DNA of 48,571 nt. Origin: a virus. Shown here piece by piece: positions 1,423 to 48,408 of this stretch. The position numbers and the translations under genes were made by a program. The notes under the pieces were generated by a model. The model was not told the origin of the DNA. It saw nothing but the letters and a program-made list of their open reading frames with translations, and searched no databases. Where the stretch lies: positions 1 through 48,571 of IMG/VR virus record IMGVR_UViG_3300007640_000049; one strand, given 5' to 3'. Positions within the stretch are counted from its first letter, which is position 1, and each line of letters opens with the position of its first letter.

Positions 1423-1459
1423 GGCCCAATCTCTTAATACAGGGATTGGGTCTTTTTTT
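1423..1459 (+). terminator. Rho-independent terminator
   Basis: GGCCCAATC (1423-1431) pairs with GATTGGGTC (1444-1452) around a 12-base loop and is followed directly by seven T (1453-1459). It sits between the first small-gene group and the protease/scaffold gene, whose ribosome site GGAG begins 3 bases after the T tract. Confidence 0.8.
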
Positions 1460-1472
1460 ATGGAGTTGTCGG

Positions 1473-4067
1473 ATGGAATCTAATAAGAAGCGGATGGGTA
1501 AGTTCTTTTACGAAAAGGACGAAGAGAGTGGGGAAGAATTTGTAGTCTATCCTTCCATCCCTATCTTTGATGAGCATGAGGGAGAGGATGGAACTGTCTA
1601 CGACAGGGAAGTTCTTGCTCACATTGCCCAGAATAACAATGACAGGATTGAGGATACGGACGACCTTTGCCCTATTGTCGGTTGGCATACTCCACAGGAG
1701 GACGAGTACGATCCGGATAAAGATCCTCCAATCATTGGTTGGGCTGAAAACTTCAGGGTAGAAGACTTTGGCAACAAGCGACCTAGAGGCTGCATCTTTT
1801 GCACCTTCAAGATCTACAAGAAGTTCCACGATTACTTCAAGTCTCACCCTCGTAGATCGGTTGAGATCTGGCCTGAGGACGATCCGAAACAGCGATACAT
1901 TGATCCGATTGCCGTATTGGCTGGAGTAACTCCCAAGCGAGACCTGGGATACCTGTACTCCAAATCGACTTCCGAAGGACCGGAAGTCCTAGAGCCTATG
2001 CGGTATAGCCAGAAGAATCGGTCTTCTAAGCTCAAGTACGAGATGGCATATCCCGGCGGTGGTAACACATATGTTACCAGTGGTACTGAGCGTAAGAAGA
2101 ATAGCAGGGCGGATTCTGTCTCTGTTCAGTACGAGCAATCGTTCTCCGAACTAGACAGGCAATTGCAGTCTGACTTGTTTGGGTATGAAGGCACTCATGG
2201 ACAGGCTCCTTTCAAGCCGCCCGGAGCGGGTTCTGCCTTTGTGTCTGGCATGGCATCTAGCCTGTTGGATGGCATGAAGGGCAAGAACGATGGAGGGAAT
2301 AAGGAACCGGCTAAGGAAATGGAAGTGCCAGAGGCAGATGTTTCTGGTGGGGTAGAGGCTCCTCCTACGCCGGAAGAGGCTGCGGATGCAAAGGCTAAGA
2401 CTCCACCACCTCCCCCACCTACAGAAGGTGGCATGGACATGGGGGCATTGGCTGAAGCTGGCAAGGCAGCATTGCCAGAGCAGAACGACAAACCGGGACC
2501 AAAAGACCCTAGGAGGACCAAGGCTCCTAAGAAGGATCAGGTCAAGGGGAGTGATGAAAATCCCAAAGGTTCTGCCTCTAAGGAGAACGAGAAGATTGAC
2601 CTGAGTGATGAGACAGAATCTTCTCTCAAAAAGAAGTTGGAGTCTCACAACAAAAAGGGCAAGGGTTCGGAAGCTACGCTGGGAGCATTGAAGAGCGTCT
2701 GGCGTAGAGGTGCTGGGGCATACAGCAGCAGCCATCACCCCAAGATGTCTCGCAGTGGTTGGGCTATGGCTAGGGTCAATGCATTTCTGGAGCTTCTAGA
2801 AAAGGGCAAGCCTAGTAACTCTGATTACACGCAGGATTATGATTTACTGCCTTCCGGTCATCCAAAGAAAAGTAAGAATCAAAAACAAACCAGTGATAGT
2901 TCTGGATTTAAATATGCCAAGCAGGGCAATGACGTAACTTCTCAACTTATGGGAGAACCTACAATGGCTTTATCTGACCAAGAAATGGGCCAGATCGTCC
3001 AAGGTGTGGAGACTCTCGTCCAAGACTTGCTTCAGCAGCAACTCCCCGGCTTAATTCAAAAAGCCATGGGTGAGCCAATGCCTGAAGATACTTTGGCAGA
3101 GGACGAGGCTACGGCTGAGTCTGAAGATGCCGAGGAAGGTGTTCTGGATGAAGTCATCATGGGTGACGATATGGAAGAAATGCCCGAGCAAAATGCCAAG
3201 AAGTCCAAGGACGATGAGGACAAGGACGAAAAAGAAAAGAATGGCATGATGTATGGGAAGGACTCAGAAGACTATGGAAAAGATTCTGAGGACAAAGAAA
3301 TGTATGGTGGCGGGTGCGGAAAGGAGAATTATGAGGAAGACATGAAAATGGCAAAGATGATGTTTGCCAAGGCATGTAGCTCATACAAGCTCGACTCTGC
3401 CAATGCTGACATTGAAGGTGCTAAGCAATACATGGCATCACTGGATGATTCGGATAAAGAATCAATCAGTCGCTATGTGGATAGCAGCGAGAGTAGTGAG
3501 CAGGAGAAACAACTGTACTCTAAGGTCTCTGTCAAATCAGAGAACAGCGAGCAGTACTCAAAGGCCAAGCGAGAGGCCAAAGCTTACTATCAAAAGAAGC
3601 TTCAGGAAGAGACCATCAAGTACCAAAAGGTACAGCAGGCTAATCGCAAGCTGATGGATGAGCTTGTCTCCATGAAGTCGGATTTGGCTGAGTCTCGAAA
3701 GAAAGAGCGTTACAGCAAGATTTCGAGTCGGTTGGCTGATCTTGAAAAAGATGGCTACTGCTTTGACCGAGAGAAAGAAATTTCTTTCTGCATGAATCTT
3801 ACTGACGATCAGGTCAACGAGCATATCTCTGAGCGAATCCCAATGCATTATGCAAAGGCTCCGTTTGGCGACATGATCCCTGTTGTCGAGAGCGAAAGAA
3901 TTACTCCTGCTCCTAGCAAGAGTGAGAAATATGCCAAGGCTGCTTCAGACGCAACTATTAGCCTTCGGGACAATGGTTTGCGTGGCTTGAAGTATAAGAA
4001 GGTCTTGGATTGGATGTGTGAAAACGACACCGACCGTACCCCAAGTGCAGATGAACTTGGTTATTAA
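1473..4067 (+). CDS. Head maturation protease fused to scaffold-like region
   Basis: 864 residues from ATG 1473 (GGAG seven bases upstream); a longer reading from TTG 1446 would start inside the terminator stem and is rejected. Residues about 20-165 resemble phage I-like/U35-type prohead proteases: a GWHTP segment (His72) and RRSVEIW (Ser129) followed by an IDPIAVLAGVTPKRDLG stretch, the place where related proteases carry their conserved Ser and ALLG.PP segment. Residues 408-442 hold a compact RGAGAYSSSHHPKMSRSGW motif followed by AMARVNAFL, known to me from other phage virion proteins (DUF5824-like). The rest is low-complexity, acidic and coiled-coil (about 690-765), as in scaffolds. Y-(S/A)-K occurs at 162, 481, 682, 695, 747, 793 and 820 and may mark processing sites. 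Decoration and capsid genes follow. Confidence 0.8.
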   Translation: MESNKKRMGKFFYEKDEESGEEFVVYPSIPIFDEHEGEDGTVYDREVLAHIAQNNNDRIEDTDDLCPIVGWHTPQEDEYDPDKDPPIIGWAENFRVEDFGNKRPRGCIFCTFKIYKKFHDYFKSHPRRSVEIWPEDDPKQRYIDPIAVLAGVTPKRDLGYLYSKSTSEGPEVLEPMRYSQKNRSSKLKYEMAYPGGGNTYVTSGTERKKNSRADSVSVQYEQSFSELDRQLQSDLFGYEGTHGQAPFKPPGAGSAFVSGMASSLLDGMKGKNDGGNKEPAKEMEVPEADVSGGVEAPPTPEEAADAKAKTPPPPPPTEGGMDMGALAEAGKAALPEQNDKPGPKDPRRTKAPKKDQVKGSDENPKGSASKENEKIDLSDETESSLKKKLESHNKKGKGSEATLGALKSVWRRGAGAYSSSHHPKMSRSGWAMARVNAFLELLEKGKPSNSDYTQDYDLLPSGHPKKSKNQKQTSDSSGFKYAKQGNDVTSQLMGEPTMALSDQEMGQIVQGVETLVQDLLQQQLPGLIQKAMGEPMPEDTLAEDEATAESEDAEEGVLDEVIMGDDMEEMPEQNAKKSKDDEDKDEKEKNGMMYGKDSEDYGKDSEDKEMYGGGCGKENYEEDMKMAKMMFAKACSSYKLDSANADIEGAKQYMASLDDSDKESISRYVDSSESSEQEKQLYSKVSVKSENSEQYSKAKREAKAYYQKKLQEETIKYQKVQQANRKLMDELVSMKSDLAESRKKERYSKISSRLADLEKDGYCFDREKEISFCMNLTDDQVNEHISERIPMHYAKAPFGDMIPVVESERITPAPSKSEKYAKAASDATISLRDNGLRGLKYKKVLDWMCENDTDRTPSADELGY

Positions 4068-4081
4068 GAAGGAGACATGAA

Positions 4082-4486
4082 ATGGCGGATGTTATCAGCT
4101 TGAAGGCTGGGGGTAATATCAACCCCTCTGTGTTTGTTGAACTGGATGCAACGGCAGATGCGACCGTTATTCAGGGTGATGCTTCAACCGTATTGGCCTT
4201 TGGAGTTTCGGGAGAATCGACCGAAGATGCTCCGGGCCTTAGCGGTGCAAGCAGCTACCACGCTTCTGTTAATTCAGAAGCTGTAAAAGTCTATGGTCCG
4301 GGCGAAAGCTGCCTGCTTACCGCAGGTGCTGCTGTTACCCGTGGCTCTTTGCTCAAGTGCAATGCAAGTGGTCAGGGCGTCTTGGCTACGACAGGCACTT
4401 ATGCAAATGCAGTTGCTGTTGAATCAGCCGGTGGTGCTGGTGAGCTAATTCGAGTTCGAGTGACTGACCCCGTTTACGTTCCCTAA
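4082..4486 (+). CDS. Capsid decoration/fibre protein (DUF2190-like)
   Basis: 134 residues with strong ribosome site (AAGGAG) upstream. Small, acidic, Gly/Ala-rich beta protein matching the pattern of DUF2190-like phage decoration proteins: a G..V tract, an S..V.VYGPGE turn, then LTAGAAVTRGSLLKCNASG, a repeated-turn barrel ending in an ELIRVRVTDP strand. Such proteins bind the outside of the assembled capsid and stabilise it. Its place directly between the protease/scaffold and the major capsid gene is the usual one. Confidence 0.8.
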   Translation: MADVISLKAGGNINPSVFVELDATADATVIQGDASTVLAFGVSGESTEDAPGLSGASSYHASVNSEAVKVYGPGESCLLTAGAAVTRGSLLKCNASGQGVLATTGTYANAVAVESAGGAGELIRVRVTDPVYVP

Positions 4487-4524
4487 TTGAACTAAACGAA
4501 CAATAAAGAAAGTGAGATTGAATT

Positions 4525-5565
4525 ATGGCAGCGCAATTTCCGGGGCAGTTTAATACTTATGTCCCTAACACGGAATCGTCGAAGAATCTTGTAGCGGATT
4601 TCTCTCGAAATCCAGAAGACTTCGCCCTACCTCAATACGTTCAGTACGTCCCGGTAGAGAAGAACAAAGGCTTCTACACCGAGATGACTGTTGAGATGGC
4701 TGGTCGTATTGTTAACCCTCATGACTCCCGATGGGCTGATGGGGATTATCAACCACGGCTAACTGGTAGCACTGAGAAGTTTGAGTTCAAGCCATTCCAA
4801 GCTCAACGCCACATCTATGGCTTTGAAATTGGCGAGATGGCTGCTGATCAAGCTTCTTGGGACATCTTGGCTCAGTTGGCTCGTCACGCTGCACAGCGAG
4901 CGATGACCAACCGAACCTTGGATCTCATTACCTTTGCCTCTAATACCTCGAACTACTTGAGCGCATCTCATGTGTTCAACGTAGCTTCTGCCCCCATCAC
5001 GTTGGCTGGTCGGCTTGATGCCGCATTGTCAACCAACATGGATATCAAGAAGACTCTTGATTACTGTGCAGAGTTCATTCACATCCAGACTCTTGGTGCT
5101 GTTACTCAGGACCAGATCATGTTTGTGATGAATCCGACCACGGCACGGGCTTTGTCCAACACTCAGGAACTTCGTGACACTGTCAAGCAGTCTCCAATGG
5201 CTCAGCAGTTGATCGAAGCTCAGCTTGGTCCTTGGACTCAATGGGGTCTTCCGGGTGAATTGTACGGATACAAGATCATCATTGAGAACACTGTCCGAGT
5301 CAGCACTAAGAAGGGTGCTACGACCAGTAAAGACTTCGTCCTTGGTGACGGAAACATTCTGGTCATGAGCCGTCCCGGTGGTCTGGAAGGCGTCGAAGGG
5401 GCTCCTTCGTTCTCCTCCTACACTGCCTTCATCAAAGATGAAATGATCGTTGAGCAGAAGCACGATCAAGATAACAAGCTCTACACTGGGCGTGTTATTG
5501 ACACGTTTGACTTCCGTCAAACTGCTCCTCTTGCTTCTATGATCATTACGAATGCTTTGACATAG
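4525..5565 (+). CDS. Major capsid protein
   Basis: 346 residues, the usual size for an HK97-fold capsid protein. The N-terminal arm is followed by an acidic, aromatic E-loop-like region (residues about 45-90) and a helical spine region (residues about 105-150, with DILAQLARHAAQRAM). The C-terminal half contains the P-domain/A-domain-like alternation ending in a YTGRVIDTFDFRQ strand. There is no Y-(S/A)-K motif, so any N-terminal processing is not evident. A strong terminator follows at 5601, a common arrangement that boosts capsid expression. Identification rests on position, length and fold pattern rather than a diagnostic motif. Confidence 0.85.
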   Translation: MAAQFPGQFNTYVPNTESSKNLVADFSRNPEDFALPQYVQYVPVEKNKGFYTEMTVEMAGRIVNPHDSRWADGDYQPRLTGSTEKFEFKPFQAQRHIYGFEIGEMAADQASWDILAQLARHAAQRAMTNRTLDLITFASNTSNYLSASHVFNVASAPITLAGRLDAALSTNMDIKKTLDYCAEFIHIQTLGAVTQDQIMFVMNPTTARALSNTQELRDTVKQSPMAQQLIEAQLGPWTQWGLPGELYGYKIIIENTVRVSTKKGATTSKDFVLGDGNILVMSRPGGLEGVEGAPSFSSYTAFIKDEMIVEQKHDQDNKLYTGRVIDTFDFRQTAPLASMIITNALT

Positions 5566-7406: not shown

Positions 7407-8342
7407 ATGCCATTCATGGCTGCTTTAGGTCCAGTGCTTCGTGCAGGGGCAGGCATGCTTGCCAGTGGTGGCGGCACTGCTGCCCGTGCTACTGGGAGTG
7501 CTTTAAGCTCTCAAGGCATGAAGCAGGCTGTTGTTCAGGGCGTGGGGCAGGCTGCATTGTCTGGTGGCATGGGTGGTGGCGGTGGTCAAATGGGAGGCAT
7601 CCTTAATATCGGAGCCTCAATGAAGGCAGGTGCTGCTAGGACTGCTGTTAGTCTTGGCACAGGAAGCCTTGATGCCATGGGGGCTGCTGCTGATCCAAGA
7701 ACAGCCTCTGTCATTAAAGGCGGTCTTGATGTATTTAAAGACACTGTTGGAACTGCGGCAAAAGCACTTTCCCCCATATCCATGATTAATCCTAAGACAT
7801 GGCTTGAGATTGGCCAGTCTGTTATGGGACTGCCAAACAAAATGGCAAAGCTGGGTGACGCTGCAATTGCTGCGGCTAAAGAGCTTGCTGGTTTTAGCGG
7901 TGCCATGGGAGAAGCTGCTATTGAGCAAGCCTTCGGTGATCTTCGGCGGAGCATACAAAAAGCCCAGCAGACAGGCCAAAGTACTCTCTCTCTAACACGC
8001 AGGACTGAAGAGCTAAAAGATAGTTTTCTTCCGATACAAAACGCGATAACAAATGTAACAAACTACCTTTTAGAAATGGGTGTAGAGCTTGTTATAGCAA
8101 TGCTCCCACTTGTTCAGGGCCTGTTTGAAGTCCTCAAAAAGCTTCTGATTTGGACGCTAAAACTGGTTTCTTATGCCGTTGATTTTATTGAATGGTGGTG
8201 GGGGCAAGATGGTCTTGGAGAAATAATTAGGAAGCAGGCTGATAAAATTGCACAAGTAGAAATTAATACTAGAAAAGAAGACAGTCGCGGCCCGTTGGAA
8301 GATCTTCTTCAGGACATTGCTGCGGGTGGTCTCATTAGATGA
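7407..8342 (+). CDS. Short tape-measure-like protein
   Basis: 311 residues beginning 7 bases after the frameshift product's stop. The N-terminal 70 residues are Gly/Ala/Met-rich. The middle is helical, and residues about 225-265 form a long hydrophobic helix region (VELVIAMLPLVQGLFEVLKK, then LIWTLKLVSYAVDFIEWWWG) as in tape measure proteins, which cross the membrane during DNA entry. Placement after the chaperone pair is the classical one. It is very short for a tape measure: 1.5 angstrom per residue predicts a tail of about 47 nm. Alternatively it is a membrane-active internal tail protein. Confidence 0.6.
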   Translation: MPFMAALGPVLRAGAGMLASGGGTAARATGSALSSQGMKQAVVQGVGQAALSGGMGGGGGQMGGILNIGASMKAGAARTAVSLGTGSLDAMGAAADPRTASVIKGGLDVFKDTVGTAAKALSPISMINPKTWLEIGQSVMGLPNKMAKLGDAAIAAAKELAGFSGAMGEAAIEQAFGDLRRSIQKAQQTGQSTLSLTRRTEELKDSFLPIQNAITNVTNYLLEMGVELVIAMLPLVQGLFEVLKKLLIWTLKLVSYAVDFIEWWWGQDGLGEIIRKQADKIAQVEINTRKEDSRGPLEDLLQDIAAGGLIR

Positions 8343-29341: not shown

Positions 29342-30046
29342 TTAAATAGCTCCTTCCAGCTTCTTGCTTAACCTTTTGGATGCAGTCCCGTGAGCCCGGA
29401 ACCCTACAATGACCTTGCGATCTTTCTTCTGGCACAACATGCATCTAGCACATGACATGTCGTCTACCTCTTGTGCAGGGCAGATCGTGATAGGCACACC
29501 ACCCGGAGTCTTGTTGCCCCTGCTTGGTGCGTCCTTGGGCAGGATAGTTGCGACTGGACCCACACCTAGTTGGTAGTAGGTGTCCGCCTGAGTTAGAGAG
29601 TCCGCTGACATGTTGACCACTAGACCGCCTAGCTTGTTCATGTCCCGAACTACTTCAGCATTGTGTTGGTCTTCCATGTCGTAGTGGGTATAGGTCCAGC
29701 CTTTGGTATGCTTTGCAGCCTTGCCCAACTGGATGAACTTGTCCCGATCTATCCTGTCTGTCTTGTCGTCAGACAACTCCTTGTCCTTGGGTGCGTCACC
29801 CGCTTGTGCATGCCTCCAAGGCTGTCCCTTCCAGAACCTAGCCACCGCTCGACAGAACAGATCCCAGTTGCCACCCCTGTCTCCCTTGGATACTTTCTTC
29901 CAGTGGATGCCAAGAGGACCGAACCTTGCGTAACAGTCGGTATCTCTAAGTGGGCATGAGTTAGGACAGGAGTCCTTCTCTACCGTGGATACAGGAACAG
30001 GCCCGACCTTCCTGTTGTTGGATACCATAGTCAATTGAACTTGCAT
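29342..30046 (-). CDS. DUF7227-type cysteine-cluster protein
   Basis: 234 residues from ATG 30046 (AAAGG eight bases upstream; ATG 30085 has none). The start VSNNRKVGPVPVSTVEKDSC then CPLRDTDCYARFGPLGIHWK, WRHAQAGDAP, TYTHYD, a central VNMSADSLTQAD, and CPAQEVDDMSCARCMLC match a conserved protein common in phages and plasmids, with several cysteines likely forming a metal-binding site. The family has no established function that I know. It probably needs a metal cluster. Placed at the head of the small-gene operon after the hairpin at 30091. Confidence 0.7.
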   Translation of the reverse strand: MQVQLTMVSNNRKVGPVPVSTVEKDSCPNSCPLRDTDCYARFGPLGIHWKKVSKGDRGGNWDLFCRAVARFWKGQPWRHAQAGDAPKDKELSDDKTDRIDRDKFIQLGKAAKHTKGWTYTHYDMEDQHNAEVVRDMNKLGGLVVNMSADSLTQADTYYQLGVGPVATILPKDAPSRGNKTPGGVPITICPAQEVDDMSCARCMLCQKKDRKVIVGFRAHGTASKRLSKKLEGAI

Positions 30047-30090
30047 GATGAAACCTTTCTTCTTGAAAGAAACTAATCGGTACACAATAG

Positions 30091-38122: not shown

Positions 38123-38627
38123 AACAAAATCTCTTAGCAAGAAAGAAGAAATACAGAGAAAGCGGCGGTGGCTTGAGGCATTTAACTCTACCAGATCGGT
38201 AGATGCAGCCTGCAAGATGACCGCCATTTCTTTTAACACTGTGTCTAAATGGTCGAGCGAAGACCCTGTCTTTGTTAAAGACTTTGATGAGATCAAGAAG
38301 GGTTTGCTGTTTGAAATAGAATCTGTGGCTTTTGATCAGGCTAGAGAGGGCAATGAAAAGCAGATACAGTTTCTCTTAAAGGCTTGGAATCCCGAAAAGT
38401 ACGGTAGCCAGTCAAGCATTAACCTGAACGTCAAAAAGGATATTGATGTTAGGTTTGCTGGAAGAGGGGTTGAAGAGGCTAGGCTTGAGCTTGCTGATCA
38501 GTTCATGCAGTTGATAAAAGAAACTCCGGGGGGAGATGACATTATCAATAGTATGAGAAACAAGGCTTTGATTGAGGGTGAGGTTGTAGATCATGCACGA
38601 CAGGACTCCGATGGAGTTGATGAATGA
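38091..38627 (+). CDS. terS: Terminase small subunit
   Basis: 178 residues from ATG 38091. Residues about 35-70 form a helix-turn-helix (VDAACKMTAISFNTVSKWSS), followed by the usual DPVFVKDFDEI, a long central helix region and KYGSQSSINL. Such proteins bind the packaging site on concatemer DNA and load the large subunit. The C-terminus overlaps the large subunit start by 35 bases, the usual arrangement. Confidence 0.75.
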   Translation: MEIRKVIQEIETKSLSKKEEIQRKRRWLEAFNSTRSVDAACKMTAISFNTVSKWSSEDPVFVKDFDEIKKGLLFEIESVAFDQAREGNEKQIQFLLKAWNPEKYGSQSSINLNVKKDIDVRFAGRGVEEARLELADQFMQLIKETPGGDDIINSMRNKALIEGEVVDHARQDSDGVDE

Positions 38628-40083
38628 GTACGGTCGGTCGATGGATCGCATGTACTTTACCTACAAGCCAAGGGCAGATCAGCCTGACAGGTTTGACGAG
38701 CAGTCGGCTTTCTACAACAGCAAGCACAAAGGCGTGACGTTCATTCTTGGTGGTAATGGATCTGGCACTACCACTACAGCATTGGCAAAAGCGGTCAAGT
38801 TTCTACTTAGAGATCAACCACCACCGAGACCTGCTACACCCTTCTGGTTTGTATCGGAAGGGTATCCGATGGTCATGGACGTTGTGTGGAACGAGAAGCT
38901 GTTTGGAAGAGGTTTGTTGCCAAAGGAAGAGATACAGTGGGACAAGATTGATTGGTACAAGCCGAATCAGAACTGGCCCTTTCGTGTTCCGCTTAAGCCT
39001 TGGCCTGGGGAAAACCCTGACAACTATTGGATCTTAGAATTTAAAAGTTACGAGCAAGGTCGCTCTAAGATGCAAGCTTCTTCCGTTGGTGGCTTTGTTT
39101 TTGTAGAGCAGTGTCCGTTCGAGCTAATTACGGAATCTATTGCTCGATGCCGAGATTACAATTTCCCCGGAGCGAAAATTGCTGAGTTTACTCCTATTGA
39201 TCCTGTTCTTTCTCAGCCGCTTGAAGACATGTTGATTAACGATTCATTGCCTGAAGACTGGGCTGTTTATAGGTGTAATACAGAATGTGCCATGGAGGCT
39301 GGGCATGTTTCAAGAGATTGGTACAACGAGTTCTTTGGGATGGTTTCGCCTGAAATGCGGGATGTCCGAAAGATCGGAGCATTCGCTTCTTATGAGGGAC
39401 TGATTTATCCGACATTCAACACTAGGCTCCATACAGATACAGATGTCATGTCCATGTTGGTTCCGGGTGTTAGGCACTACAGGGCAATTGACTGGGGGTC
39501 TGGGCCTGATAATGCAATGGTTTGCTTGTGGGCGGCGAAGGATGGAGTCGGTACTTGGTATGTGTATGACGAGTATTATAGCACGGACCAAAATATGAAT
39601 TATGCAGATCATGCATCGGAGATTATGAGCATGCATGACTGGAGTGATTCAATGTATTACTGCCAAACGTATGTAGATCCTGCGAGTCCGGGTTTGGCTA
39701 GGCTGTTTACGGACATGGGGATATACACATCGTCCGCACTAAATTCTGTGATTGAAGGCATCGAGGCTGTTAGAGTTCAGTTAACTCTTAAGCATGGTGA
39801 ATCGCAGATTGTCATTGATAAAGATAGATGTCCGAATCTCGTTAGAGAGCTTCAGACTTATAGGTGGGAACGTGCTAGGAACTCTAGGTTAAATCCGAAA
39901 GATGCAGCGCCGAGACCTTTGAAAAAAGATGACCATGCGTGTGATGCTTTGAGGTATCTTATATTCACCAATCAACAATCAGCCAGATACGATGGTATAA
40001 GCACAAAGAGGGTTGTGCCTAAGAACAAGCGGCGTTTTCTTAACACAACGGACATGGAGAAGGGCAATGGCTACTCAGGATGA
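38593..40083 (+). CDS. terL: Terminase large subunit
   Basis: 496 residues, start ATG 38593 with GAGG nine bases upstream. ATPase half: FILGGNGSGTTTTALAKAV has GGNGSGTT where a classical Walker A has Lys, and VGGFVFVEQCPFELITE carries Glu-Gln in place of the Asp-Glu of a standard Walker B. Nuclease half: YRAIDWGSGPDNAM, TYVDPASPGLARLF and DDHACDALRYL supply the acidic residues of the RNase-H-like nuclease. Packages DNA through the portal and cuts headfuls. Both ATPase motifs depart from the norm in the same way, and I recall related terminases of this type, so it is a variant family and not necessarily inactive. Confidence 0.85.
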   Translation: MHDRTPMELMNEYGRSMDRMYFTYKPRADQPDRFDEQSAFYNSKHKGVTFILGGNGSGTTTTALAKAVKFLLRDQPPPRPATPFWFVSEGYPMVMDVVWNEKLFGRGLLPKEEIQWDKIDWYKPNQNWPFRVPLKPWPGENPDNYWILEFKSYEQGRSKMQASSVGGFVFVEQCPFELITESIARCRDYNFPGAKIAEFTPIDPVLSQPLEDMLINDSLPEDWAVYRCNTECAMEAGHVSRDWYNEFFGMVSPEMRDVRKIGAFASYEGLIYPTFNTRLHTDTDVMSMLVPGVRHYRAIDWGSGPDNAMVCLWAAKDGVGTWYVYDEYYSTDQNMNYADHASEIMSMHDWSDSMYYCQTYVDPASPGLARLFTDMGIYTSSALNSVIEGIEAVRVQLTLKHGESQIVIDKDRCPNLVRELQTYRWERARNSRLNPKDAAPRPLKKDDHACDALRYLIFTNQQSARYDGISTKRVVPKNKRRFLNTTDMEKGNGYSG

Positions 40084-41014
40084 TTTGCTTCAAATGGCAT
40101 TAGCCTCTTTGCAAAGATCTAGGGGGAGTCGCAAAACTGCAACAGAGAGATTGGCAAGAGACCTTGGTCCTATTGGCGCTGGCATTGGAATGCTTGCAGA
40201 TTTCTATGCAGGGCTAAAGCAAAAGGATGCAATTCGCAGGCAGGATGTTCTGGGTGCTTACGACAACATTTTTAAGCAGCCTTCTTATCAGCCAACGCTT
40301 TCTGCGTTCAGGGTTAGCCCTTTCGTGTCTAAAGATTCTGGCGTTGATAGTGCAAGAAGGATGATGATTGGATCAGCCTCTGGCAGAGCAATTCCTGCTG
40401 TGAGTGATATGCACAGTGATGTTTACAACACTTACAGGGTAGATACTTATCCTGATGTTGTGTTTAGATCCAGAGGCAGGGAAGGCTTTGACCAAAAGAG
40501 AGAGAGAATTCTTACGCCTAGTGAGAGAAGAAGGAGGATCATAGAGGATGAAGTAAGGAAGGAGAGGGCATCTGATCGTTCAAAGACTCCTCCAAATGAA
40601 AAGTCGTTTGTCGAGAATGATAGCTTTGAGTCTTCAAACGTGTATTCGTTCTGGTATGACGAAGGAGCTAGTGAGCTTTACATAACCTTTAGAGACCCTG
40701 CGTTTGTTGGGGAGACTGACATACAGGGAAACAATCTTTGCAAAAATGATAAGCCATATGTGTATGACGGTCATGCAAGGAATCCGGGGAAGACATTTGC
40801 CTATACTGTTCCTAGAAGTATTTATACTGGTATGATGTCAGCCAAGAGTAAGGGCAAGTTTGTTTGGCAGTATCTTAGGGAGTGCGGAACTGTTTATGGT
40901 CATCAGTACCCAGTCCGAGAGGTTGGTCCGTCTGATGCAAGAAGCATGGTGGACAAAGAGGGTAGGCAGCGAGACAGGGAATATCAGCCAAGTGGATTCA
41001 GAACCCCTATCTAG
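40067..41014 (+). CDS. KTSC-domain-containing protein, 315 aa
   Basis: Start at ATG 40067, overlapping the terminase end, with GGAGAAGGG upstream. The C-terminal third reads as a KTSC-like domain: a YDEGASELYITF strand pair, then GKTFAYTVPRSIYTGMMSAK, with the usual A.S.G.y...Lr helix. The first 200 residues are basic and low-complexity. KTSC domains occur in small proteins linked to RNA or translation; here the role is unknown. Confidence 0.55.
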   Translation: MATQDDLLQMALASLQRSRGSRKTATERLARDLGPIGAGIGMLADFYAGLKQKDAIRRQDVLGAYDNIFKQPSYQPTLSAFRVSPFVSKDSGVDSARRMMIGSASGRAIPAVSDMHSDVYNTYRVDTYPDVVFRSRGREGFDQKRERILTPSERRRRIIEDEVRKERASDRSKTPPNEKSFVENDSFESSNVYSFWYDEGASELYITFRDPAFVGETDIQGNNLCKNDKPYVYDGHARNPGKTFAYTVPRSIYTGMMSAKSKGKFVWQYLRECGTVYGHQYPVREVGPSDARSMVDKEGRQRDREYQPSGFRTPI

Positions 41015-41655: not shown

Positions 41656-44600
41656 ATGGCTGATAAGGGATTGCGGGTCAAGGGCAAGACGTATAAGAGC
41701 ATCTCAGAAGTTCCAGAGCAGTACAGGGCTCAGTGGGAAGCTGGCAGTCGCCAGAAAGATCCGGGGAACGTAAATCCTAATATAGGGCCAAATGCTGGTC
41801 GGACAATCGTTCCGCACGTTACGACCTTTTCTGGCATTGTCTCTACATTAGCCAAGACATATCGCAATCATGATGAAGCGATTCGGCACAATGTGCAGAA
41901 CGCTCATATGATGCGTCGTGACCCTATGATCATGGGTCCGCTACTCGCTAGGCAGAGAGCAGTAGCACTTCTTAATTGGTCGGTTGAGCCAGAGGATAAG
42001 ACCTCCGAGGTCGAAGTCCGTATTGCCAAAGAACTGACCAAGATGATCAGCATGATCCCTCGGTTTACGGAATACCGCCGCAATCTGCTTGAGGCTGTTT
42101 GGTATGGCAGATACGCCATTCAGCACAAGTGGAGCTTTGTTCGCAAGGGCGGGGCAAAGGGCAAAGGAATCATTGACTGGGTTCCGGTGCATGGTGACAA
42201 AATCATGTTCCGGTACGATGATGGGACGGGAAAATATGATCCGAACGAAATTGGTATCAAGGTTTCTCCCGCTCATGTAAAGAACGACATCTGGGCAGGC
42301 AAGCCTGAGCTTGAGTACAATACAGAGGGTAGTGCGGTGTTCCTACGAAAGTGGGAACGCTCTCGTCTAGCACTGCACAAGCATCTCATCATGGATGGTG
42401 ATTATGAAGATCCAACCACCGCAGGGATGATCCACGGTGTTGGTCTTCGCCATTTCTTGTACTGGGCGTGGTTCCAGAAGCAAGAGACTCTAGCTCAGTT
42501 GGCAGAGATTGTAGAGCGTACTGGCATGGGCTTTACGATCTACTACTACCCTGCGGGTAACGAGCAGGCTAGGGCTAAGGTAGAGGAAGTGGCAGAGGAT
42601 CAGGCTCACAAGAACCAGATCATTATGCCGTATGATGCTGCCAACCCAGGTAGCTATGGCATTGATCAGGTACAGCCAGTCACGGCAGGAATTCCCGCTC
42701 TAACCAATCTGCTGGATGAATATTGGGGTAGCTGGATCATCCGATTCATCCTCGGTCAGACTCTCAGTATGAGAGACGGTGGAGGCGGATTGGGAACTGG
42801 TACGGCAGATCTGCATAAAGAATCATTCCTGCAAATCATTGAGTATGATGCGCATGCTTTGGATGAGACCCTGACTCAGGATCTCGTTCGGATGTATGTT
42901 CTTTTCAACTATCCCAGCTATCGGCACATCAACTTCAAGTTCAAGTCGCATACAGAGAAGGCTGTTCCGCTTGAGAAGCTACAGTCGATTCAGGCTGCTT
43001 GGAGTATGGGGGCAAAGGTCAAGGCGGCAGATGTCATGGACCTTGTCGGTATGACTGTAGCGGGGGAAGAGGACGATGCTCTTTACAACCCACAGCTTGC
43101 TATCGCTTTGAAGCAGTTCCGCGAGACTATGAATCAGGATCGGGAACAGCAAGTGGCAGAAGAGCTTGCTCAACAGCAGTCCAAGGAGAAGGAGTCTGTA
43201 CAGCGTTACTCTAAGTTGTATGCAAAGAGGGCTCCTGTTCCGGTAAGGCGACCGTCTAGGAAGGCTCCAAAAGGGTTTACTGTTGGGGGAGAGGCTAGTA
43301 AGAGAAAGGACTCTTCCTTCAAGCCACCCAAGGAAATGGTTTACAAAGATCCTGAAAAGAACAGCAAGGATGGTGCGGGTCCGGGGGATCATAAGGATTC
43401 TGATTGGGATACGACTTGGAAGCAGTTGATGGGGGATCTTACGGGCTTGCGGGGAGAAATGCCGGAAGAAGCCTATGGCTCCGCAGGCATTGCCGCTGCT
43501 CAAAAATACATGCCTAGAGATCCGGGGGATAAGGAGAATCCGGATTACAAGTACAATTTGCAGTATCAGGAAGAGGGTGATGAGCCGGAGCCTGTGGCAG
43601 ATCAGACTGGCGTAGATACGAGAGCAATATTGGGGGAAGAGCCAGAGCCTATGGAGGCTACTTTAGCCCGATTGCAGCAGGAGGATGCTGATAAGGATGA
43701 TGCTGCCAGTGCAGTCCAGCCAAAGGCTGAAGGCGAGATGTTGACTGGGGCGTCCTATGGGGAAGAAGAACTGGCTCAGAGCAGGTTGGAGCAAGAGGAA
43801 AAGGAGACTGATCTTGGAAAGATTATGAAGGAGGCGGGTTTAGCCGGAGAAGAGTCTTCTGGCACTATTCAGGGTAATGTAGAAGCTCAGTTTACTCAGA
43901 AGCCAGAATCTGACTTTGACGAAAGTTCTTCTATTCGTTTGGGAATCATTCGTCATTTGACTGATTTGCATCCTGAAAAAGAGCAGCCTAAGCAATTGAT
44001 TGACAAGCTTACGACTAAAGAGCTTGACACCTTAACAACGTCTGGAGTTATTAGTCGTGCAAAGTCTGCTATTCAGGAATTGCACAAGAAAGAGGGGAGG
44101 GTGACTGATTTATCTAAGCTAAAGAATGAGTCGGATGTTGATAAAGAACTTGAGAAGTATCCTGCGGATGTTCGATCTGACGTAAAGTCAATGTTTGCTA
44201 GAATTCCTACGCCTGATGCGGAAGGTAATAGGGTTAAGCCTGAGTGGTCAAAGTACGAACTGATGTCGCCAGATCAGATCGAAGTGGCAAAGCAATTGGC
44301 TAATGCCGAAAGCGCTACAGAATTCTTCCGGTCTCAAGGAAAAGGAGATTTAGTTTCTCAAGTGCTTTCTGCTGGCACTAGAGAGAAAACCGGCGCAATC
44401 ATGGGCAGGGACTTTAGTACTCCAGAGGCAAAGAAGCTTGTTGCAGAGTTAAATAATCCTGAGTATTTGCATGCAAGCATGGTTAAGGGGATGGGGAATT
44501 ACAATCACATTACTAGTGAGCTTGATAAATTTATTAAGTCTCAAACTGGCAGGAAAGAGGTTTTGCAGGACGATAGGTGGAGGATTCTTGAAAGCAATCC

Positions 44601-47600
44601 CGATGTAACCATTTCTCACCCAAGAGTTCCGGGCGAGACTATTACCATTCCTTTTAAGGATGCAGTTTATTCATTGCAGGCAATTCGTGAGTCTGTTAAA
44701 GAAGATAGGAATGCCTTGGCCGATGCCAATCTTGATAAGTTTGACGAAGAGACTGCTGGAAAATTCAGGGACTTATGGGGCGGACTGGAAAAAGATTATT
44801 CATCTTGGTCAAAGAAGACAGGAGACCAGACAAAGGCGGGGTATACACCTTTGGTCAAGAGTCTTCCGGAGGCGGAGGTAGATGCCGATGCTCATGATAA
44901 GATGATGGACAAGTTCCATGATATTGATGCTGGTTCAGGCACTGTTAAATCTGCATTGGATCAGATCGGGGAAGCAACGCCAGAGAGCATTAAGGATATT
45001 CCGGGAGATCAGTTTGCCGCTTTGTATATGATTGCTCAAGAGCAGAATCACGAAAATGCAAGCTTGTTTGAGGAAGATCTCGCTAGAAGGAATGAAGAGT
45101 CGAAGTCTGCTGCTGCAAGGGCTCAGGAACGGGCATCAGAAAAGCAGAAAACAGAGACGGCAAAATCGCAAGAGCTTGCTGCCTCGGAAGAGATAGTTCC
45201 AGAGACAGAAGAACCTTCGACTGTAGTTGCGGGGATTGGTGAAGATCAGTTCTCTGAAATGAACTACGAAGAGAAACGCGATCATGTTGATAGCCTGCTA
45301 GAGTCGATCAGATTTTCTGGCGTTCAAAAGCCTGAAGCTGGTGTTCAGTCTTTGTCCGAATCAGAACTGGAAGAAATGCACTCAGACATCTTGAGTGAGG
45401 TGGAGAGTGACATTGCACGAATGGGCAATTCTAGGACAACAAAGAAACAGCTAGAGGACTTGGCGGATAAGTACGGAGTAGATGTTTCTGAATTCTCTAA
45501 GGAGTCTGAAATTTCATCTGCCATTACTGAGTCGATTAAGGAAGAGAAAAGAGAGGCTGTAACCTCTGAGCAAGTTATTCCAGAGGCTCCGGTTACTGAG
45601 GTAGAAGATCCGGGTACTGGGTTTATTGACCTTGGGGCTCCGCCTGAAACTGGATTGGCTATTACTGATGCGACTGACGTTCCTTCTGCTCCGAAGACCG
45701 AGTTGATTCCAGCCGGTCAGAAAGATGCTGGAACGGGGTTGACGACGGAGGTTGTGGACGAAGCTGGTGAAATGGATCAGGATGTCCTTAGAAAATCAAT
45801 GGACATGGATGCTATTCGTGAAGCCATGAGTGGGATTGAGACAAGTGATTTGGAGCAATATCTTTCTAGTGAAGAGAGAGGTCCGAGAGTAAATCAAATG
45901 CTCAAGGACATTAAGAAGATTGAAGATCCAGATACTCGGTCTCAATTGACTGCATACTTGTTTGTGGCAGGGACTCCGGGCTTTATTAAGCAGGATGTTT
46001 CTCAGAAGACGAAAGATTTTATATCCAACGGCTTGCTGGCAGATTTGGAATCAAAGATTAGTGAGTCAATGCCTCCAGAGCGAGTAGGGACTACTGCTTT
46101 TGGAAGTAGGGAAGATGTTTCTGAACCACAAGTGACTCGCGTTAAGCCAGAGCCCGAACCCGCTGGGGCGCTTCCTTCGCCTAGAGACGCAGCTTTTATG
46201 CGTGGTCAGGAGATTGAAGATCTTAAAGCAGAGTTGACACAGAGAGGAATTAAGTTCCTTCCGGGTGAATCGAGGGATGAGCTTAAGAAAAGGCTGGAGG
46301 CTGGTGTTTCATTTACAGAATTTACAGATGCACAAATTGGAAAGATGGATGCTAAGAGGCTCAGGGCGTTGCTGACTGAAGCGAATAAGCCATTTGCAAG
46401 CAATGCCAGTGTTGGCGAGCTTAGGAAAGAGCTTAAAGACCACCGAGATGATTTGATCAAGGCGGATGAAGAGGCGAAGGCTGCTGCTGCACAGGTGGAT
46501 GAAGGTGACAAAGAGACGGCAGATTACATTAAGCAGATTGAAGACGTAGCCAGAATGGCTGAAGTATCGAAGGACTCGGAAGAATATGTTCAGGGAATAG
46601 GAAATCTTATCAAGAGTGCTGAGCAGCAGAAGGTTGAAATTGCAGAGAACGTCAGGGATTACAGAACCGATCAAATGGTCAAATCGCTGGTCGATACTTG
46701 GGAAGAAAGAAATCCGGGCAAGCAGCTTTACACCAGTGAGATTGCTGAGCGGTACAAGGTTGAAGAAAACATTGCATCTCATCTAAGCGATTATCAAGAT
46801 GCCCTTGTGGGCTTAGGTAGCCTAAGCAAGCTTCATAGGCATGCGGTAAGCGTTATGTATGGAGGTGGTAATGTTAGAAATGTTCCGCTTGAAGCCTTGC
46901 GTCGTGCAAGCAACCAAGCAGAGTATGTGATTGACCATGTGGTAACCACTCGACCGGAAGAGTTAATACAACAGCTTGTTGGGATTCGGGCTGATGCTCT
47001 AGAGAGTAAAGCCAGTCAGCTTTTAGAAGAAGGGAAGGCTAAGGCTATTGCTGATTTATTTGGGGTTCCGCTGAGCGATGTCCAGATTGATCCAGTTACT
47101 GGAAGCTCTAACTTTGACAAGGCGCTTGAGGCTAACACTTTGGAGAAGTGGAGAAGAGGTAGTGGGACTGAGGAAGACCCATATCAATATTTTGATATAG
47201 ATGAAATAAACAAAGAACTGCAAGATGCCTACGAGAGTAAGGCTCGCAGAACAACTCCACCTCCGGGGGCTGACCCGCAAGCTGCACGGGCAGGCGCACC
47301 TCCAGTTGCAGGTACTGATTTTGCAGATGTCAAACTTAGTACTGAGCGGTCTAGCTTGTTGGAGAAGGCAAAGGATCGAATCCAAAGAAAGGGTCGTGAT
47401 GGATCTTTCCTTATATCTGATCAGCAGCTTGAAGACGGGGCTAAGGGATTTGGATTTGTTAGTAAAGAAGAGTTGGGCAAGTTGAACAGGAGTCAATTGG
47501 AATCGAAATTTGCTGCTGGCCTTGAAAGGAAGCTTAAGCAGGACCAGCTTGTTGAGGACCATGGCATTGATGAGTCAGATCCAAAGTTTGCAGAGTACAA

Positions 47601-48408
47601 ACTGCTTGCAAGGCAAATGGGCTTTGAAGGAAATATGGCTGATAGAGTTGCAAAGGACAGGTTTGTTCAAGAGAAAGCTGGCGATGCTATTCTCGCTAAG
47701 AACAAGGCTGAGTCTGAGGCAATCATTGCAAAGAATGTAGAGAACACTAACTACAAGGACTGGGTGTCTAAGCGTAGTGCATTGGTTACTATGTTTGGCG
47801 ATGCAATGATTGGTACTACTGGTAGAAAGATTAAAGAGTTGCCAGAGTTTAACAAAGACACTATGGCACAAATGGACTCTAACGTCTTAGCCACGGCTGA
47901 AAAGTATCTAGGATTCAATCCGAATGAGGATAGATTCCAGCGTGATACGGTAGAAGAAACGAAGAAAGCTCAGGTCGAAGGTGCATTCGAGCATCTCAAG
48001 CAGAACATTGACGACATGAAGGGAATGACCAAGCAGTACTCTGACTTCATGAATAGCCTTGGCAATGAGACGGCTACTAAGCTGGCAGGGGACTTAGGTC
48101 TTAATAAGAGTGCAATGCTTGAGTTTGGGGAAATGCCACTGCACAAGCAGGCTTTTGTCGCTTCTAAGCTTCTGAATCATGCGGCTGTCCTTGGAGGTCA
48201 TAAGCCAGACAGGACTAAGGGTACGGTTGGCGGGATGGCTGATTCGATTGATTACTTGCTGAACAACCGGAAGGCGGTAGAGAATGCAATGAGGAAGGAA
48301 TATGGTTCCAGCTTTGCGTTCGAGGACTTGAACTGGAAGCATATCACCCTGATCATCTTTACCCTTCTGGCAATGTCTACTCTGAGTGCTATTGGTAGGA
48401 GCCGATAG
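41656..48408 (+). CDS. Portal protein fused to a giant helical extension (2250 aa)
   Basis: Residues 1-about 510 are a portal of the Mu gp29/DUF935 type: VPHVTTFSGIVSTLA, MMRRDPMIMGPLLARQR, RYAIQHKWSFVRK, a helical mid-domain, and QVQPVTAGIPALTNLLDEYW. A RYSKLYAK motif (517-524) marks the end of the portal-like part. The other 1726 residues are acidic, helix-rich and low in aromatic residues, with SAP/HeH-like helix repeats (about 1260, 1518-1548, 1553-1600), long Glu/Lys/Ala segments, and a hydrophobic C-terminal helix (HITLIIFTLLAMSTLSAI, about 2228-2245). A portal forms the DNA gate; the extension could line the head or act in DNA ejection. The frame is continuous, so it is a real fusion in this sequence; processing is likely. 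Confidence 0.8.
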   Translation: MADKGLRVKGKTYKSISEVPEQYRAQWEAGSRQKDPGNVNPNIGPNAGRTIVPHVTTFSGIVSTLAKTYRNHDEAIRHNVQNAHMMRRDPMIMGPLLARQRAVALLNWSVEPEDKTSEVEVRIAKELTKMISMIPRFTEYRRNLLEAVWYGRYAIQHKWSFVRKGGAKGKGIIDWVPVHGDKIMFRYDDGTGKYDPNEIGIKVSPAHVKNDIWAGKPELEYNTEGSAVFLRKWERSRLALHKHLIMDGDYEDPTTAGMIHGVGLRHFLYWAWFQKQETLAQLAEIVERTGMGFTIYYYPAGNEQARAKVEEVAEDQAHKNQIIMPYDAANPGSYGIDQVQPVTAGIPALTNLLDEYWGSWIIRFILGQTLSMRDGGGGLGTGTADLHKESFLQIIEYDAHALDETLTQDLVRMYVLFNYPSYRHINFKFKSHTEKAVPLEKLQSIQAAWSMGAKVKAADVMDLVGMTVAGEEDDALYNPQLAIALKQFRETMNQDREQQVAEELAQQQSKEKESVQRYSKLYAKRAPVPVRRPSRKAPKGFTVGGEASKRKDSSFKPPKEMVYKDPEKNSKDGAGPGDHKDSDWDTTWKQLMGDLTGLRGEMPEEAYGSAGIAAAQKYMPRDPGDKENPDYKYNLQYQEEGDEPEPVADQTGVDTRAILGEEPEPMEATLARLQQEDADKDDAASAVQPKAEGEMLTGASYGEEELAQSRLEQEEKETDLGKIMKEAGLAGEESSGTIQGNVEAQFTQKPESDFDESSSIRLGIIRHLTDLHPEKEQPKQLIDKLTTKELDTLTTSGVISRAKSAIQELHKKEGRVTDLSKLKNESDVDKELEKYPADVRSDVKSMFARIPTPDAEGNRVKPEWSKYELMSPDQIEVAKQLANAESATEFFRSQGKGDLVSQVLSAGTREKTGAIMGRDFSTPEAKKLVAELNNPEYLHASMVKGMGNYNHITSELDKFIKSQTGRKEVLQDDRWRILESNPDVTISHPRVPGETITIPFKDAVYSLQAIRESVKEDRNALADANLDKFDEETAGKFRDLWGGLEKDYSSWSKKTGDQTKAGYTPLVKSLPEAEVDADAHDKMMDKFHDIDAGSGTVKSALDQIGEATPESIKDIPGDQFAALYMIAQEQNHENASLFEEDLARRNEESKSAAARAQERASEKQKTETAKSQELAASEEIVPETEEPSTVVAGIGEDQFSEMNYEEKRDHVDSLLESIRFSGVQKPEAGVQSLSESELEEMHSDILSEVESDIARMGNSRTTKKQLEDLADKYGVDVSEFSKESEISSAITESIKEEKREAVTSEQVIPEAPVTEVEDPGTGFIDLGAPPETGLAITDATDVPSAPKTELIPAGQKDAGTGLTTEVVDEAGEMDQDVLRKSMDMDAIREAMSGIETSDLEQYLSSEERGPRVNQMLKDIKKIEDPDTRSQLTAYLFVAGTPGFIKQDVSQKTKDFISNGLLADLESKISESMPPERVGTTAFGSREDVSEPQVTRVKPEPEPAGALPSPRDAAFMRGQEIEDLKAELTQRGIKFLPGESRDELKKRLEAGVSFTEFTDAQIGKMDAKRLRALLTEANKPFASNASVGELRKELKDHRDDLIKADEEAKAAAAQVDEGDKETADYIKQIEDVARMAEVSKDSEEYVQGIGNLIKSAEQQKVEIAENVRDYRTDQMVKSLVDTWEERNPGKQLYTSEIAERYKVEENIASHLSDYQDALVGLGSLSKLHRHAVSVMYGGGNVRNVPLEALRRASNQAEYVIDHVVTTRPEELIQQLVGIRADALESKASQLLEEGKAKAIADLFGVPLSDVQIDPVTGSSNFDKALEANTLEKWRRGSGTEEDPYQYFDIDEINKELQDAYESKARRTTPPPGADPQAARAGAPPVAGTDFADVKLSTERSSLLEKAKDRIQRKGRDGSFLISDQQLEDGAKGFGFVSKEELGKLNRSQLESKFAAGLERKLKQDQLVEDHGIDESDPKFAEYKLLARQMGFEGNMADRVAKDRFVQEKAGDAILAKNKAESEAIIAKNVENTNYKDWVSKRSALVTMFGDAMIGTTGRKIKELPEFNKDTMAQMDSNVLATAEKYLGFNPNEDRFQRDTVEETKKAQVEGAFEHLKQNIDDMKGMTKQYSDFMNSLGNETATKLAGDLGLNKSAMLEFGEMPLHKQAFVASKLLNHAAVLGGHKPDRTKGTVGGMADSIDYLLNNRKAVENAMRKEYGSSFAFEDLNWKHITLIIFTLLAMSTLSAIGRSR

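Follow-up and report, generated by a model that had tools for sequence, protein, structure and literature searches.

Large proteins located inside the phage head or tail, some of them inserted into membranes, include the ejection and core proteins of podophages and the tape measure proteins of siphophages. These are products of separate genes, whereas the sequence described here is fused to a portal protein. The fusion gene occupies positions 41656-48408 (+ strand) of IMG/VR virus record IMGVR_UViG_3300007640_000049; the window, that is, the whole stretch of DNA analyzed, is the entire record of 48,571 bases, which is linear and has no terminal repeat. The gene product resembles the Mu-type portals of phages JBD30 and Mu in its Portal_Mu domain and in being encoded after the terminase in the head gene cluster, but it has 2250 residues compared with 526 in the JBD30 portal. 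In the accessible text on JBD30 (PMC11445458), the crown and wing of the portal are placed inside the capsid.

Fusions of effectors to portals are a known kind of protein. The accessible text of Iyer et al. 2017 (PMC5512222) describes PBECR, 2H and InPase domains fused to portals and argues that they are packaged and injected, and that of PMC9503650 describes Nudix domains on portals and ADP-ribosyltransferases (ARTs) on head or portal proteins. As in the fusions of Iyer et al., the added part in the window's group is C-terminal to the portal, and InPase and PBECR recur among the window's relatives. Unlike the fusions in that text, the group at times carries several domains, includes sigma-70, topoisomerase IB and helicase cases, has a helix end in one clade and, in the window itself, an added part without a recognised domain. 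The sizes also differ, with 862 amino acids (aa) for BcepF1.124 from that study versus extensions of up to 2208 aa in the window's group. The initial annotation had called the architecture unfamiliar, which overstated the case, since portal-effector fusions were published in 2017. The published accounts found, as far as their text was accessible, did not include the giant scale, the exchange of many payloads among phages of a single portal group, the cases with a sigma factor, topoisomerase or helicase, or the clade-specific helix end. The literature searches turned up no portal fusion this large, none with a C-terminal helix and none carrying a sigma factor; subscription papers were outside their scope, and no absence from print is claimed.

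The fusion gene is divided as follows.

41656..43101, + strand: Mu-type portal domain, aa 1-482 (Portal_Mu, phrog_113, identity to relatives, 8rka profile match)
43102..48405, + strand: C-terminal extension, 1768 aa, in frame with the portal, no recognised domain
43345..43506, + strand: stretch of 54 aa (aa 564-617) in common with the extension of a related locus, L005 (46% identity, E about 1e-7)
48340..48405, + strand: membrane-helix-like C-terminal segment, aa 2229-2250, the last 22 residues (Kyte-Doolittle)

The one-frame portal of 2250 residues proposed initially was confirmed. The frame has zero internal stops, and neither a stop nor a frameshift is present near 43,230. Residues 85-465 match Pfam Portal_Mu (PF06074) at 1.9e-40, with a score of 139.7 bits against a curated cut-off of 23.9 and with positions 6-335 of the 336 in the profile covered. 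The portal part also matches the phrog_113 portal family in PHROGs (2.3e-35) and is 64-66% identical to the portals of three IMG/VR contigs, L002, L003 and L005. Among solved structures, the portal 8rka is matched by the group's profile at 6.1e-12; we take 8rka to be the JBD30 portal, in agreement with the length of 526 residues. Alignability to the relatives stops near aa 482, indicating a long extension as first described, though of about 1768 aa and not 1726.

The chance of 1768 stop-free codons from base composition alone is about 2e-49, and along the extension the codon-position GC content shows the same coding pattern as in the portal part. The independent contig L005 has a complete portal open reading frame (ORF) of 2363 aa, with a 66% identical portal and a hydrophobic helix at the end. 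L002 continues in frame for at least 515 aa beyond the portal before its contig ends, and the L003 contig breaks off early. The 54-aa stretch is the sole similarity between the complete extensions of the window and L005. It differs in place, at aa 564-617 in the former and aa 1301-1353 in the latter, and it had no further match among ORFs of at least 40 aa in the loci collected up to then. The three contigs with 64-66% identical portals, the complete ORF of L005 and this single shared stretch indicate that the 2250-aa fusion is real and that the extension, by sequence comparison, evolves much faster than the portal. A fusion made during metagenome assembly, or a functionless, decaying read-through, would suit a linear record that lacks a terminal repeat and starts inside a gene. 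The architecture shared by independent contigs, the coding pattern and the absence of stops over 1768 codons speak against it; as regards the architecture this explanation is refuted, and overall it is hardly credible.

To define how widespread such extensions are, an alignment of ten relatives was used as the query, and the best 80 of 98 loci were taken, which form a pattern-based sample and not a census. Portal ORFs were measured for 74 new loci and 12 earlier rows (L007 and L002 among them), 86 in all. L078, L095, L113 and L115 are repeat records of L006, L008, L003 and L005 and were not counted again, and L003 was excluded as a truncated near-copy of L002. The ORF was complete, ending within the locus, in 76 of the 86. 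The extension exceeded 200 aa in 48 of these 76, 500 aa in 28 and 1000 aa in 11; after removal of near-duplicates, the counts were 42, 25 and 11 of 67. Homologues with long and with short extensions both occur, and in the relatives an extension stays in frame with the portal, not as a separate unrelated gene. The longest extension (2208 aa) is that of L068, whose close tree neighbour L082 has 36 aa.

In the portal tree (75 rows), the window groups with L005, L002, L116, L118, L103, L112 and L114, with a Shimodaira-Hasegawa-like approximate likelihood ratio test (SH-aLRT) support of 100. All eight members of this clade have long extensions, with 859 to 2175 aa for the seven that are complete and at least 515 aa for L002, and a recognised domain is present in five of the eight. 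Outside the clade, extension length shifts between close neighbours. Long extensions are thus a feature of the window's portal group rather than of all Portal_Mu proteins, since the frames of the 13 of 392 Planctomycetota genomes with Portal_Mu over the cut-off are 171-573 aa long, except that of L013, with 1341 aa. The group alignment hit five genomes, four Planctomycetota metagenome-assembled genomes (MAGs) and one Saprospiraceae MAG. A check for separate payload genes used a protease motif, which was recognised in 16 of the 76 loci with a complete portal ORF. In L015, L077 and L100 a protease-like ORF follows directly after a short portal, and in L047, L049 and L071 the two are separated by gaps of 2.7-6.6 kb, which may contain separate payload genes.

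The contents of this variable slot were identified by a Pfam scan of 56 of the 86 extensions (at least 100 aa, near-duplicates removed). InPase was found in 18, ART-PolyVal in 4, Methyltransf_23 in 3 and topoisomerase IB in 2. Single cases were PBECR1, PBECR3, sigma-70 regions 2 and 4, a Strawberry-notch/SNF2-type helicase, PAPS reductase, LPD1, S-AdoMet lyase, DUF6884 and others. Domains were assigned to portal ORFs by family searches on the records, matched through open-frame length. ART was present in the portal ORFs of L005, L043, L044 and L069 (in L005 as ART-PolyVal within the extension, 1.3e-16), topoisomerase IB in L072 and L107, helicase with InPase in L114, LPD1 with InPase in L103, and InPase in L112, L068 and others. 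The portal ORF of L116 (8818-13074) holds a sigma-70 region 2 match at 2.4e-14, which suggests a sigma factor carried in the virion.

For the most part, these contents belong to the domains of 'polyvalent' head-packaged effectors. The group resembles polyvalent proteins in its very long multidomain chains among the head genes and in the catalogued domains (ART-PolyVal, LPD1, InPase, helicase) of L005, L103 and L114, and differs in the covalent link of its chains to the portal. The window was not classified with them, because its own copy has no catalogued domain: by Pfam, no polyvalent domain of the catalogue of Iyer et al. 2017 is present in its extension, although relatives have them. Likewise, InPase and PBECR are absent C-terminal to the window's portal and present in relatives such as L013, L014, L103 and L006.

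Some phages of the group also have separate, very long ORFs (3235 to 3665 aa) that contain ART stretches, two of them with sigma-70. The records of L112 and L114 (G417 and G418) have such ORFs, of 3235 and 3665 aa, in which sigma-70 is joined with several ART-PolyVal stretches, and in the L118 record sigma-70 is located in a separate ORF of 1060 aa. The L005 portal contains a phrog_2859 domain at aa 804-901. The same domain is N-terminal in a capsid protein and near a pre-capsid gene start in other phages, Roseobacter phage CRP-811 and Vibrio phage 1.013.O; these placements fit a head-internal domain.

These results make it rather probable that the extension is a portal-tethered, capsid-internal payload for early infection, which the head protease would cut loose and which would leave the head along with the DNA. 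The C-terminus of a Mu-type portal would point into the capsid and serve as a loading slot for cargo. The extension is probably inside the head, as also suggested initially, because the JBD30 crown and wing are inside the capsid in the accessible part of that report (PMC11445458) and the extension starts where the crown would be. Twelve portal copies would then put as many extensions of 1768 aa (about 2.3 MDa by our own arithmetic) on the crown before DNA packaging. The payload reading follows from the slot contents of the relatives, enzymes and regulators with targets in the host cell: ADP-ribosyltransferase, PBECR nuclease, InPase, topoisomerase IB, helicase, S-adenosylmethionine (SAM) lyase and a sigma-70 factor. 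The presence of enzymes and a sigma factor points to a payload that is delivered more than to a conduit with a purely structural role, provided that the window's extension works as those of its relatives do. Such a payload must leave the portal, because the host is where a sigma factor or an ADP-ribosyltransferase would be expected to work. The simplest release route would be cleavage by the head protease, and the freed extension could be ejected together with the DNA and act early in infection.

A candidate for this protease is encoded at the opposite end of the record.

1446..4067, + strand: predicted prohead protease (N-terminal) with a scaffold-like C-terminal part (His67/Ser124, AlphaFold2 model, re-alignment)

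The protease-like N-terminal domain recurs in ten other loci, and His67 and Ser124 are invariant in the 11 aligned parts. In the AlphaFold2 model (predicted local distance difference test [pLDDT] score, 76.7), the best PDB re-alignments by VIA were to T4 gp21, with a Z score of 8.3 versus the 7 to 8 that models without a clear match may reach, and to herpesvirus proteases. Matches of the model in BFVD include capsid maturation and prohead proteases. A Foldseek search of the model against the PDB gave nothing at E 0.001, the best match being an unrelated MCE-type chain at E 0.12. Because of the invariant His and Ser, the re-alignment to T4 gp21 and herpesvirus proteases and the BFVD matches, the gene likely encodes a head protease of the gp21/assemblin type, which is predicted to cut the extension from the portal.

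Several points weigh against the delivered-payload reading. The window's extension matched no Pfam family at E 0.001 and none over the cut-off at E 5, searched whole and in six pieces, and nothing in NCBIfam or PADLOC. It had zero tblastn matches in phages or plasmids, and no sequence relative was detected in IMG/VR by scanning with three parts of the extension. An AlphaFold2 model of aa 747-1125 was uninformative (pLDDT, 45.7). The virion location is derived from homology, and cleavage is a predicted step on which the reading depends, as an uncleaved, portal-bound payload could not enter the cell. The main gap is that a soluble payload leaves the C-terminal membrane helix unexplained.

Other searches of the window gave the following. 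The extension had nothing usable in the PDB by sequence, and against PHROGs the full chain had, outside the portal region, just a weak match to phrog_17622 (E 0.1). ART-PolyVal gave nothing usable across the whole record. The extension contains no Cys and is acidic, with a net charge of about -96 over the last 1750 aa. The SAP/HeH-like repeats of the initial annotation were not borne out, since Pfam SAP (E = 2.2) and Ish1 (0.12) were both below the cut-off and self-BLASTP revealed no internal repeat.

The hydrophobic end segment was found as initially reported. The top 19-residue Kyte-Doolittle mean is 1.80 at aa 2229-2247, and no other segment in the protein reaches 1.6. Helix-like C-terminal ends occur in 4 of the 62 complete extensions of at least 60 aa, those of the window, L005, L116 and L118, all from one clade. 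L116 and L118 have a C-terminal domain in common (34%). A profile of this domain finds L103 at 5e-17, where part of the domain is kept without the helix. Against the window, the profile gave a nonsignificant E of 0.74, so that common descent of the helix regions is unproven. Homology between the C-terminal regions of the window and L005 was considered and found unconvincing (z of 0.6-2.7 against shuffles).

The helix end fits action at the host membrane, whether this takes place when the DNA enters or while the phage is being assembled. In the first case, the twelve extensions would form a portal-tethered ejection core, passing down the tail and, with their C-terminal helices inserted in the host membrane, forming a conduit for the DNA, similar to podophage core or long tape measure proteins. 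No clear sequence similarity was found between the window's chain and podophage ejection or core proteins or tape measure proteins. The ends of the window, L005, L116 and L118 are consistent with such a core, as is the shortness of the window's own tape measure candidate.

7407-8342: tape-measure-like candidate, 311 aa, with one hydrophobic segment; the naming is a guess

The JBD30 tape measure has about 1158 residues, judged from residue numbers in the accessible text (PMC11445458). However, L006 has a similarly short candidate (339 aa) and an extension of just 240 aa, most extensions lack the helix, and enzymes or a sigma factor, as found in the slot, do not belong to a conduit. An ejection core is thus unlikely. 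A combined form appears similarly improbable, in which the portal acts generally as a dock for covalent loading, with payloads of up to 2,200 residues including a sigma factor, exactly twelve per virion, and in which the payload of the window's clade is also membrane-anchored and acts at or through the host membrane in DNA entry, as a portal-linked ejection apparatus.

In the second case, the helix would hold the portal at the inner membrane as an assembly initiator, and the protease would later remove the extension, which would act as a core or scaffold. The location of the helix at the extreme C-terminus and the gp21/assemblin-like protease gene are compatible with this, and in T4-type phages gp40 recruits the portal to the membrane, according to the accessible text of PMC7824862. 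Yet a scaffold-like part is already present separately, C-terminal to the protease domain, the helix is absent from most relatives with large extensions, and known effector domains are unlike a scaffold. This role was considered very unlikely.

If the extension is a delivered payload, portal fusion would let phages load a fixed copy number of large early-infection proteins, and the portal C-terminus would be a place to seek new anti-defence and host takeover proteins. The 1768 unmatched residues of the window and the other unmatched giant extensions would then be candidates. This also raises the question of how a payload is released from a portal that remains in the capsid.

The portal gene lies with other virion genes in a terminase-portal phage, with the terminase three genes upstream.

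38593..40083, + strand: terminase large subunit (phrog_10250, 2.5e-22; Terminase_3C, 3.8e-7)
40061..41014, + strand: KTSC-domain protein between terminase and portal (PF13619, 1.7e-7; relatives in eight loci)
4525..5565, + strand: major capsid protein (phrog_1005, 4.9e-5; 36-62% identity to relatives in four records)

The protease-scaffold, capsid and gp36-like genes are at the opposite end of the record, in the same order as in the L005 contig, where about 9.7 kb of extra genes lies between the portal and the protease-scaffold gene. The frame at 1-615 of the window corresponds to just the C-terminal portion of a protein that has 546 aa in the L005 contig, indicating that the record begins inside a gene. 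The window genome is therefore incomplete, and if the order is as in L005, a stretch between its two ends would be missing.

The 74.6-kb contig of L005 (G001) encodes two capsid proteins, at 3562-4602 and 63935-64975, which are 62% and 58% identical to that of the window and each have their own protease-scaffold gene. At 29345-30085 (- strand), the window contains a strong DUF7227 match (3.7e-77) adjoining a DUF932 protein.

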